The notes under the pieces: model-generated
Databases searched by the model: none
Told to the model about the DNA's origin: nothing
What the model saw: the letters and a program-made list of their open reading frames with translations, nothing else
Program-made: the position numbers and the translations under genes
In this document: in pieces, positions 45,276 through 47,218 of the stretch
Layout of the letters: each line of letters opens with the position of its first letter
Numbering within the stretch: position 1 is the stretch's first letter
Origin: Anaerolineaceae bacterium
Lineage (GTDB): Bacteria > Chloroflexota > Anaerolineae > Anaerolineales > Anaerolineaceae
DNA: 64,000 bases
Direction: 5' to 3'
NCBI GenBank assembly: GCA_002702705.1
Contig: PABH01000042.1
Coordinates: 62,001-126,000, forward strand

Positions 45276-45303
45276 TTGACTTGATCTTGTAATAACCTAT
45301 AAT
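45276..45303 (+). promoter_or_regulatory. Promoter of the cysK-cysE leader
   Basis: TTGACT (45276-45281), 16-bp spacer, perfect TATAAT (45298-45303). Transcription is predicted to begin near 45310, giving a leader of about 210 nucleotides before cysK. Confidence 0.8.
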
Positions 45304-45336
45304 TGGACTAAATTTGATCGGTAAATTAGGAAAACT

Positions 45337-45381
45337 ATGAAATATACATATTGCATATGTCTAAGGCGGGGTTTGTTGTAA
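45337..45381 (+). CDS. Cysteine-containing leader peptide (14 residues)
   Basis: ATG AAA TAT ACA TAT TGC ATA TGT CTA AGG CGG GGT TTG TTG TAA encodes MKYTYCICLRRGLL. AGGA lies 5-6 bp upstream. Two cysteine codons (45352-45354 and 45358-45360) stand one codon apart in the first half, immediately before an RNA segment able to form a hairpin. Cysteine is rare in proteins, so two in 14 codons, in front of cysK-cysE and behind a strong promoter, fits a regulatory leader peptide where ribosome stalling reports low charged tRNA-Cys. No homologue is claimed. Confidence 0.7.
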   Translation: MKYTYCICLRRGLL

Positions 45382-45505
45382 CAGCCGCCTGATTATAAAA
45401 AAGATAAAAGCCATCTGATTCAGGCAGCGGAAACAACCCCCGCAGAATACCCCCCGTTTTTGCGGAATCAAACCGCCGTTTAACATCGGATGGCTTTATT
45501 TTATT
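45364..45505 (+). promoter_or_regulatory. Transcription attenuator with terminator, cysK-cysE leader
   Basis: Segment 45364-45369 (AGGCGG) pairs with 45385-45390 (CCGCCT). If a ribosome stalled at the Cys codons covers the first, GCCTGA (45387-45392) can instead pair with TCAGGC (45420-45425). That disrupts the inner stem of the terminator. The terminator itself is a 12-bp stem, 45407-45418 with 45486-45497 (AAAGCCATCTGA / TCGGATGGCTTT), with an inner stem GGCAGCGG / CCGCCGTT and a tail ATTTTATT. A further pairing, GCGGGG plus GTTGT (45366-45379) with ACAACCCCCGC (45433-45443), is also possible. Confidence 0.65.
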
Positions 45506-45521
45506 AAAAAAGGAAACTTAC

Positions 45522-46454
45522 ATGAAAATAGCAAATAACATTACAGAATTAGTCGGCAACACGCCTCTTGTTCGTTTAAATCGTATATCTGCAAATCTGC
45601 CCGGAGAAATTGTCGTTAAACTTGAATATTTTAATCCTGCCCATTCCGTTAAAGATCGGATCGGGGTAGCCATGATCAACGCTGCTGAAGAGGCTGGTCT
45701 AATAAACCAAGATACAATTATCGTTGAACCAACCAGCGGAAATACGGGTATTGCACTCGCTTTTGTTTGTGCAGCCAGGGGATATGCCTGCAAGATCATT
45801 ATGCCAGATACCATGTCCAATGAACGGAAAATGCTGCTGCGCGCTTTAGGTGCTGAATTAATTTTAACACCAGGAGCAGATGGGATGAACGGTTCCATTC
45901 AAAAGGCGAATCAAATGGCAGCGGAAGACCCGCGGGTCTTCGTGCCCCAGCAGTTTAAAAACCCAGCCAATCCGGAAATCCACCGAAAAACAACAGCGGT
46001 GGAGATTATTAATGACACCGATGGTAAAGTAGATTATTTTGTGGCTGGTGTAGGAACAGGGGGCACAATTACCGGCGTTGGAGAAGTATTAAAACAGCAC
46101 AATCCCGAAGTTAAAATCGTTGCAGTCGAACCAGAAGGCTCTCCCGTTCTTTCGGGCGGTGAGAAAGGTAAACACCCAATCATGGGAATTGGTGCCGGCT
46201 TTATTCCGGATGTATTAAACACCGAGGTTTACGATGAAATTATCCAGGTCAGCGGTGAAAATGCCTTCCAAACAGCCCGCGATATGGCCTCCAAAGAAGG
46301 TCTGCTGGTCGGTATTTCCTCTGGAGCAGCAGTCTGGGCAGCGCTCCAAATTGCTGCCCGCCCAGAAGCAAAGGGGAAACGTATTGTTGTTATTATTCCA
46401 TCGTTTGGTGAACGATATTTAAGTACTCCTTTATACGCTGATCTGGCGGATTAG
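45522..46454 (+). CDS. cysK: Cysteine synthase A (O-acetylserine sulfhydrylase)
   Basis: A 310-residue PLP enzyme that makes cysteine from O-acetylserine and sulfide. The PLP lysine is K44 in [10 protein letters not shown]. The substrate loop TSGNTGIA, the phosphate-binding GTGGTITG and the C-terminal [10 protein letters not shown] are all typical. It begins after a structured leader with a terminator and is followed 11 bp later by cysE. Cystathionine beta-synthase is excluded by length and by the CysK-type loops. Confidence 0.95.
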
Positions 46455-46465
46455 GAAGATCCTGA

Positions 46466-47218
46466 ATGAATAAGTTTTTTCGCACCTTTTTAGAGGACGT
46501 AGATGCCGTATTTAGCCGCGACCCAGCCGCACGCAGCAGGCTGGGCGTGGTATTGTACTACCCCGGCTTACACGCCATTTGGAGTCACCGCATCGCTCAT
46601 GGGCTGTGGCGCAGGAAAATCTATTTTCCTGCGCGCTGGCTTTCACAAATTACCCGCTTTTTTACCGGTATTGAGATCCATCCCGGAGCGATCATTGGTA
46701 GATGTTTATTCATTGATCACGGCATGGGCGTTGTCATTGGTGAAACCGCAGAAATTGGAAATAATGTCACCCTTTATCATGGCGTCACACTTGGCGGAGT
46801 AAGCACAAAAAAAGGAAAACGCCACCCCACTATTGCTGATGATGTCGTGGTAGGTGCAGGCGCAAAAGTATTAGGTGCGATCCATATTGGCAAAAAAAGC
46901 CGTATCGGAGCCAATGCAGTGGTCGTTAAAGAAGTTCCAGAAGATTCCGTTGTGGTAGGCGTTCCTGGACAAATCGTCAAACGCAGCCATCCGCAGCTTG
47001 AAGAGAGGTTTGACTTGAATCACAATAATTTACCGGATGCCATTGGGCAATCCTTGTTAATATTAATGGAAAAGATGGATAAATTAGAATCAAAAATAGA
47101 TATTAATCTTACCCAAAAACAGCTGTATATCGAGGAAACTGAGTTAACCGTTGAGTCAGATAACAAAATCCACTCCCCTGTTGATGGGGTTTGGTCAGGT
47201 GAAGATTTTAGTATTTAA
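46466..47218 (+). CDS. cysE: Serine O-acetyltransferase
   Basis: A 250-residue enzyme that acetylates serine, the first step of cysteine synthesis. The N-terminal helical domain holds [20 protein letters not shown], and the left-handed beta-helix follows ([37 protein letters not shown]). The C-terminal tail is about 55 residues longer than minimal forms and does not end in the isoleucine-terminated motif in an obvious way, although the last residue is I (GEDFSI), compatible with cysteine synthase complex formation. Together with cysK it makes a two-step pathway. Confidence 0.95.

Follow-up and report, generated by a model that had tools for sequence, protein, structure and literature searches.

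What controls transcription of cysK and cysE, the neighboring cysteine synthase and serine O-acetyltransferase genes of an Anaerolineaceae bacterium? We examined a 64,000-nucleotide (nt) stretch of its DNA (hereafter the window; contig PABH01000042.1, positions 62,001 to 126,000), in which a short open reading frame (ORF) with two cysteine codons, a set of alternative RNA pairings and a terminator precede the two genes. We put at about 0.9 the probability that this leader acts ahead of cysK-cysE as a ribosome-mediated attenuator of transcription sensing charged tRNA-Cys; judged from sequence, the switch very probably turns on the cysteine-making genes only when cysteine is short. Its ORF, geometry, alternative pairings, compensatory changes and gene context are all present in the sequences compared below. 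The locus is made up as follows:

45276-45303, + strand: sigma-70-type promoter TTGACT-16-TATAAT (promoter scan, 11/12 consensus matches)
45328-45331, + strand: Shine-Dalgarno-like AGGA of the leader ORF (sequence)
45337-45381, + strand: leader ORF MKYTYCICLRRGLL, 14 codons, from ATG 45337 to stop TAA 45379-45381 (frame statistics, conservation)
45352-45360, + strand: sensor codons TGC-ATA-TGT (Cys-Ile-Cys), with TGC at 45352-45354 and TGT at 45358-45360
45364-45390, + strand: hairpin S1:S2 (AGGCGG with CCGCCT), -12.2 kcal/mol (folding)
45366-45379, + strand: S1, left antiterminator arm, core GCGGGG 45366-45371, pairing with 45433-45443 (covariation)
45384-45392, + strand: S2, second antiterminator arm, core GCCTGA (45387-45392), pairing with 45420-45428 (covariation)
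45407-45419, + strand: 5' side of the terminator outer stem, pairing with 45485-45497
45420-45430, + strand: S3a, partner of S2 in the antiterminator or of S4 in the terminator (pairing)
45433-45443, + strand: S3b (ACAACCCCCGC), partner of S1 (pairing; 91.6% of helix cells paired in 87 distinct leaders)
45473-45481, + strand: S4, 3' side of the terminator inner stem, pairing with S3a
45485-45505, + strand: 3' side of the terminator outer stem (45485-45497) and T-rich tail (sequence, folding)
45522-46454, + strand: cysK, cysteine synthase A (NCBIfam TIGR01139, 465.5 bits, cut-off 350.95)
46466-47218, + strand: cysE, serine O-acetyltransferase (TIGR01172, 244.9 bits, cut-off 210.65; NF041874, EpsC, 252.9 bits, cut-off 150)

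A sequence-only reading of the locus had proposed the promoter, the AGGA, the ORF with its Cys codons, the first hairpin, the terminator and the GCCTGA/TCAGGC pair, and sequence and folding place each of them where that reading had put it; the hairpin, said to start 4 bases past the second Cys codon, begins at the 4th base after that codon. The promoter recurs in relatives, with TTGAC-N16-20-TAnnnT lying within 150 nt upstream of 117 of 135 related leaders, compared with 5 on the other strand. Three leader queries matched none of the families in NCBIfam when a known leader-peptide family was sought there.

Comparisons between species rest on 219 leaders, or 138 once cores more than 90% alike are removed. 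The rows were chosen for six of six S1:S3b pairs and the layout TGY-NNN-TGY-N5-GCG, and these features, like the scanned pattern described below, define the 219/138 rows and the pattern rows and are not findings within them. Dropped beforehand were L001 (a copy), L039, L076, L077, L091, L102, L144, L203, L217, L222, L225, L234 and L235; L032, L044 and L050, whose layout does not fit, are among the leaders outside the set. In all 135 leaders with enough upstream sequence an ATG is open in frame 0 into the Cys codons, and the other frames give 11 and 7; frame 0 also places its first stop 4-16 nt beyond the start of S1 in 120 of the 138, as against 6 and 7 for the others. Thus, by its sequence, cysK is preceded by what trp/his-type attenuators carry, a short ORF with end-product codons and a coding signature. 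The second Cys codon stands five nt from S1, a spacing constant in the 42 leaders whose search anchor allowed one base of play and fixed by the anchor in the larger row sets. Of the 135 leader starts, 56 follow a Shine-Dalgarno-like site, and another 33 have a -10-like box whose distance to the ATG is 5-10 nt; the sequences suggest that the leader is translated leaderless in some genera. In L017, L018, L019, L023, L035, L040 and L042, the in-frame leader ATG lies a few nt past a -10 box.

The coding signature also bears on whether the element could be a metabolite riboswitch, responding to cysteine, O-acetylserine or S-adenosylmethionine (SAM), in which translation plays no role. Strong primary-sequence conservation, in part demanded by the search anchor, and the alternative folds would suit such a device, but the restriction of the signature to one frame and the variable sequence between S1 and S2 speak against it, and we regard it as very improbable. 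A search of the window against Rfam gave nothing at gathering score; ranked by E-value, a single match at chance level (E 1.3, other strand) falls at the leader, and we reject a known riboswitch or T-box on this basis. T-boxes sense the charging state of one tRNA and control amino-acid genes, so a Cys T-box would read uncharged tRNA-Cys directly. Their model matches all 41 genomes searched, above the cut-off in 33, and has seven matches in the window's own genome; although it finds T-boxes elsewhere in that genome, it does not match the cysK leader, which is also not among the five of the seven matches listed, and this alternative is barely credible. The five lie at G000:C22:192622-192834, C44:164-468, C44:46645-46860, C59:61364-61622 and C16:66889-67153.

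The window's leader (45310-45505) folds to -54.7 kcal/mol (z -3.36), and none of 200 shuffles is equally stable. S1 can pair with S2 or S3b and S3a with S2 or S4, and both S1:S3b and S2:S3a oppose the terminator. GCCTGA at 45387-45392 can pair with TCAGGC at 45420-45425, and the competition between S2:S3a and the terminator that the sequence-only reading had proposed stands; its account of the antiterminator as S2:S3a alone does not, as the S1:S3b arm had been missed. S1:S3b joins 45366-45379 with 45433-45443 through GCGGGG/CCCCGC and five further pairs, and no other pairing in the element is kept as well. With S1:S3b and S2:S3a the antiterminator has two arms, and where the stop codon lies is as important as where the ribosome stalls. 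As in trp/his-type attenuators, antiterminator and terminator are mutually exclusive by pairing, covariation and folding, and an intrinsic terminator with a U-tract stands ahead of the first structural gene. A T-tract is found in 124 of 136 leaders, compared with 55 after shuffling, and 47 of 138 have two separate T-tracts.

Base pairs form in 80.9% of cells among the 87 distinct rows versus 72.6% in shuffles, and S1:S3b reaches 91.6%; A3 was fitted to the structure, which biases such pair counts towards it. Covariation is 0.234 versus 0.121 in shuffles, none of 500 of which attains the observed value, and a slid alignment gives at most 0.087. The variable flanks of S1 and S3b, taken without the six core bases, pair at a mean of -11.0 kcal/mol versus -8.34 kcal/mol with permuted partners (sd 0.20, minimum -8.98 of 2000). 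Against dissimilar partners the own partner is better in 105 of 138 leaders, a comparison from which relatedness is only partly removed. The core itself is exchanged in compensated form, as GCGAGG with CCTCGC in three families and as GCGGGA/TCCCGC, GCGGAG/CTCCGC and GCGGAA/TTCCGC, some of these sets having been prefiltered for pairing; in L027 the arms are GCGGAATAG and CTATTCCGC. Compensatory stem changes, which had been named as a check on the proposed attenuator, are thus present by covariation, flank permutation and core swaps.

We simulated the ribosome by masking 12 nt, its footprint, from the first A-site base. In 134 leaders cut at S3b, before S4 is made, the mean probability that S3 is paired upstream is 0.83 with the ribosome stalled at the first Cys codon, 0.62 at the second and 0.16 at the stop, and the mean energies are -36.3, -25.7 and -11.4 kcal/mol. 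With shuffled interiors the corresponding values are 0.55, 0.36 and 0.29, and -26.8, -18.9 and -11.3 kcal/mol; the window's own leader gives -28.5, -18.3 and -7.6 kcal/mol. In the full leader with the ribosome at the stop, downstream pairing of S3 exceeds upstream pairing in 131 of 134. By calculation, stall position decides the fold, as it does in trp/his-type attenuators: the model indicates that a ribosome finishing the leader masks the antiterminator and that a Cys-stalled ribosome does not. The direction first proposed, read-through upon cysteine shortage, is supported by this modelling and by the genes controlled.

The same folding would also suit an arrest-peptide sensor of the TnaC type, in which a nascent C-x-C-x-x-R-G peptide would respond to free cysteine by holding the ribosome at the stop, so that abundant cysteine leads to terminator formation; a ribosome held there masks the antiterminator in the footprint calculation. 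The C-terminus of the leader is indeed very constant (C-x-C-x-x-R-G-x-stop), and 94 of 138 leaders place the stop codon exactly 10 nt beyond the start of S1. Residues besides Cys and Arg vary, however, and Gly is replaced by Asp, Ser, Arg or Glu where S1 changes. Since the Gly changes track those of S1, much of the C-terminal constancy is explained by S1, and plain control by tRNA charging suffices; we consider an arrest peptide unlikely.

We infer translation, stalling, termination in the cell and the cysteine response for the attenuator as follows. Transcription would begin at the TTGACT/TATAAT promoter, and a ribosome would translate the 14-codon leader. When Cys-tRNA is ample, it would pass UGC and UGU and reach the stop, its footprint covering S1 and most of S2; with these masked, S3a and S3b would be free to form the intrinsic terminator, and transcription would end before cysK-cysE. 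When Cys-tRNA is scarce, the ribosome would stall at a Cys codon, leaving S2 and all or part of S1 free to capture S3 in a hairpin of two arms, with S1:S3b on the outside and S2:S3a within; no terminator would then form, and cysK-cysE would be transcribed.

How widely is this element kept? A CysK search found a match at E <= 0.001 in all 101 genomes of the family, some being merely distant pyridoxal phosphate (PLP) enzymes, and we read the upstream regions of 50 places (L002-L051) from the upper part of the match list, 69-100% identical to CysK. Conservation of the short ORF and its Cys codons in relatives, another of the checks named, is borne out: a short C-x-C ORF lies upstream of 49 of the 50 cysK genes, compared with 2 of 50 in an other-strand control. 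The anchor TG[CT].T.TGT....G?[GC]CGG[GA] is present in 42 of the 50, and when these 42 cores are aligned, neither the C of TGC nor the GG ahead of CGG varies, despite being left free by the anchor; TGT and CGG were required by it, so their constancy there is not a finding.

A covariance model built from the 42 family leaders (R1) matches 26 of 301 genomes of the phylum, 25 of them within the class Anaerolineae. A pattern scan of named genomes (TGCNTGTGT with GGCGGGG/CCCCGC) returned 103 stretches and supplied 102 pattern rows; 77 of the 80 stretches with titles carry the name of Chloroflexota, and the other 23 are L162-L184. A second model (R2), built from 88 leaders hand-picked for variety, has matches in 97 of the 396 class genomes, in 70 of the 234 good ones and in 56 of 223 genera. 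In the 301-genome sample of the phylum it matches 26 of 38 genomes of the same class and 1 of 263 outside it, at E 0.009. Rejected matches remain counted in these genome tallies. Taken as chance were L091 (Modestobacter) and L144 (Streptomyces), for which a script found no leader start, L102 (Gemmataceae), with no downstream ORF of 110 amino acids, L077, the sole R1 match outside the class, and G261, the R2 match at E 0.009. L076, left out, shows a CICMRRG frame with no clear sulfur gene downstream. Reading 40 R2 matches showed that L217 and L235 are not leaders, left L222 and L234 in doubt and found L203 and L225 ending close to a contig edge.

Several observations weigh against an attenuator of this kind. 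In conservation, L039 is the sole cysK of the 50 without a leader, L032, L044 and L050 carry Cys-codon leaders of a different layout (Cys-Met runs), and 299 of 396 class genomes have no R2 match at the cut-off, in a search whose filters lose weak matches. By simple patterns, 46 of 135 leader starts have neither a Shine-Dalgarno-like site nor a close -10 box. The S2:S3a helices, at 73.2 and 68.3% of cells paired, fall below S1:S3b, and 64 of 500 shuffles have at least as many pairs changed on both sides as the 10 observed. With no ribosome, the fold before the terminator is made is also the antiterminator (S3 upstream 0.79), and the modelling implies that a leader left untranslated might, in contrast to trp, allow read-through. 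In the complete leader at equilibrium, S3 pairs predominantly downstream in 98 of 134 with a stall at the first Cys codon and in 110 of 134 at the second; the model therefore appears to need kinetic timing, with the switch acting before S4 is made. The complete window leader without a ribosome folds as S1:S2 plus terminator, yet its pre-terminator fold is the antiterminator. L032, L044 and L050 perhaps embody the same idea in other sequences. By eye, L044 and L050 have arms GGGAGCA and TGCTCCC and a separate terminator before cysK.

The genes behind the leaders fall almost entirely within one area of metabolism, although the covariance-model search was blind to them. A downstream ORF of at least 100 amino acids follows 197 of the 219 leader rows, and 196 of these fall into cysteine/sulfur or DUF4395/thioredoxin-like blastp clusters, counted without deduplication, so that the same genome may recur: 163 cysteine synthase or cystathionine beta-synthase (CBS)-like, 14 rhodanese, 7 DUF4395, 2 thioredoxin-like beside DUF4395, 6 of sulfite reductase type, 3 Cys/Met-metabolism PLP enzymes and 1 cysE-like, with 1 unrelated (L164). 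Representatives of five clusters were named by Pfam, among them a fusion of sulfite reductase and phosphoadenosine phosphosulfate (PAPS) reductase; the cysE-like and thioredoxin-like clusters were named by eye. A second leader in the window's genome, MIMVIEKKSNCTCIRRELFLPPQ, precedes a CBS-like gene with PALP and CBS domains (L241:1721-3344, which is G000:C46:56220-57843), scoring 508.1 bits versus a cystathionine beta-synthase cut-off of 510.25. Its S1:S3b arm looks, by eye, longer than that at cysK.

DUF4395-like membrane proteins stand behind Cys leaders in L087, L096, L131, L148, L158, L223 and L233 (L158 by Pfam, the others by likeness), and in L148 a thioredoxin-like gene lies near the DUF4395-like gene. 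This context hints at a role of DUF4395 in sulfur or cysteine supply. Tandem Cys leaders stand before a sulfite reductase type gene in L204 (18-123 and 301-403) and in L229, the second copies being weak (E 0.006 and 0.02).

The sensor codons are also kept in a fixed order. The second Cys codon is TGT in all 138 leaders and the first TGC in 132, the pattern rows among them having been searched for such codons. Where TGC or TGT was allowed at both places, in the cysK-guided rows, the order TGC/TGT is found in 44 of 44, and the rows found by the models have TGT as their second codon in 27 of 27 (R1) and 46 of 46 (R2), although the models themselves favor TGT. In the 120 downstream genes, Cys is encoded by TGC 177 times and by TGT 44 times, so the leader UGU runs against their codon bias. 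One guess is that UGU, slower through wobble reading, makes a more sensitive stall site. No partner for the conserved TGCxTGTGT stretch was found by eye.

Taken together, these results make it likely that the Anaerolineae possess an undescribed, class-wide cysteine regulon governed by one kind of attenuator, with a rigid UGC-N-UGU sensor whose second codon is UGU against codon bias and a two-arm antiterminator that would read ribosome progress. Its proposed members are cysteine synthase, CysE, CBS-like enzymes, Cys/Met-metabolism PLP enzymes, sulfite/PAPS reductase, rhodaneses and DUF4395 proteins. Such a regulon would be readable from sequence in a class known here mostly from metagenome assemblies, and would link rhodaneses and DUF4395 genes of unknown role to cysteine supply. 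The same genomes use T-boxes, yet cysteine is apparently sensed via leader translation. The two-arm design and the UGC/UGU asymmetry offer a handle on what stall position and codon choice contribute to the setting of an attenuator.

Titles and abstracts of the open-license literature on leader peptides or attenuation in Chloroflexota/Anaerolineae and on cysteine/cysK attenuators gave no description of the element. The papers searched likewise hold no account of a UGC-N-UGU sensor, a two-arm antiterminator, a class-wide regulon of this kind, its occurrence in this phylum or cysteine specificity combined with an intrinsic terminator. In the part of PMC2965389 drawn on here, leader peptides were known to the authors from Proteobacteria and Actinobacteria alone, and hisS/hisZ of Firmicutes (Bacillus) was their addition. 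For Chloroflexi, the passages cited describe SAM-riboswitch genes probably serving cysteine and methionine metabolism (PMC3766115) and T-boxes in Dehalococcoides (PMC2494555).

According to the passages cited from PMC1262725, Cys codons occur in runs in the cysteine leaders of actinobacteria, and conserved terminator hairpins are lacking in Mycobacterium; a cysteine attenuator with an intrinsic terminator is absent from that account. The polycysteine leaders of mycobacteria and relatives (PMC1262725; Canestrari 2020, via the passage cited from PMC9031893) resemble the element in their Cys codons in a short ORF upstream of cys or cbs genes and, in part, in a leaderless start; on that description, they differ from its Cys-x-Cys, its set distance to S1 and its intrinsic terminator. 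Instead of a Cys-codon run near the stop, we find Cys-x-Cys in the window and C-x-C at 49 of 50 cysK genes, 3 of those 49 (L032, L044 and L050) having longer Cys-x-Cys runs or repeats. The metL leader of Streptomyces lividans, which ends in GARCMCRRMCAF, shares a C-M-C-R-R motif, a leaderless leader and a sulfur amino-acid transport operon, but is described in the cited part of PMC8079986 as methionine-dependent and without a typical Rho-independent terminator; we take this as resemblance only. The T-box riboswitch (RF00230) shares the sensing of charging state and differs in that its model has no match here and that the attenuator would need leader translation.

The mechanism itself is of the known trp/his kind and follows the general trp/his attenuation scheme: a short ORF with end-product codons, an antiterminator and an intrinsic terminator that exclude each other, and biosynthetic genes downstream. 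Unlike trp/his attenuators, the element carries Cys codons, uses both arms of its first hairpin in the antiterminator (S1:S3b and S2:S3a), has inner and outer terminator stems in the window and in part of the other leaders, appears to have a leaderless-like start in some genera, and belongs to Chloroflexota, where it would govern a scattered regulon, not one operon.
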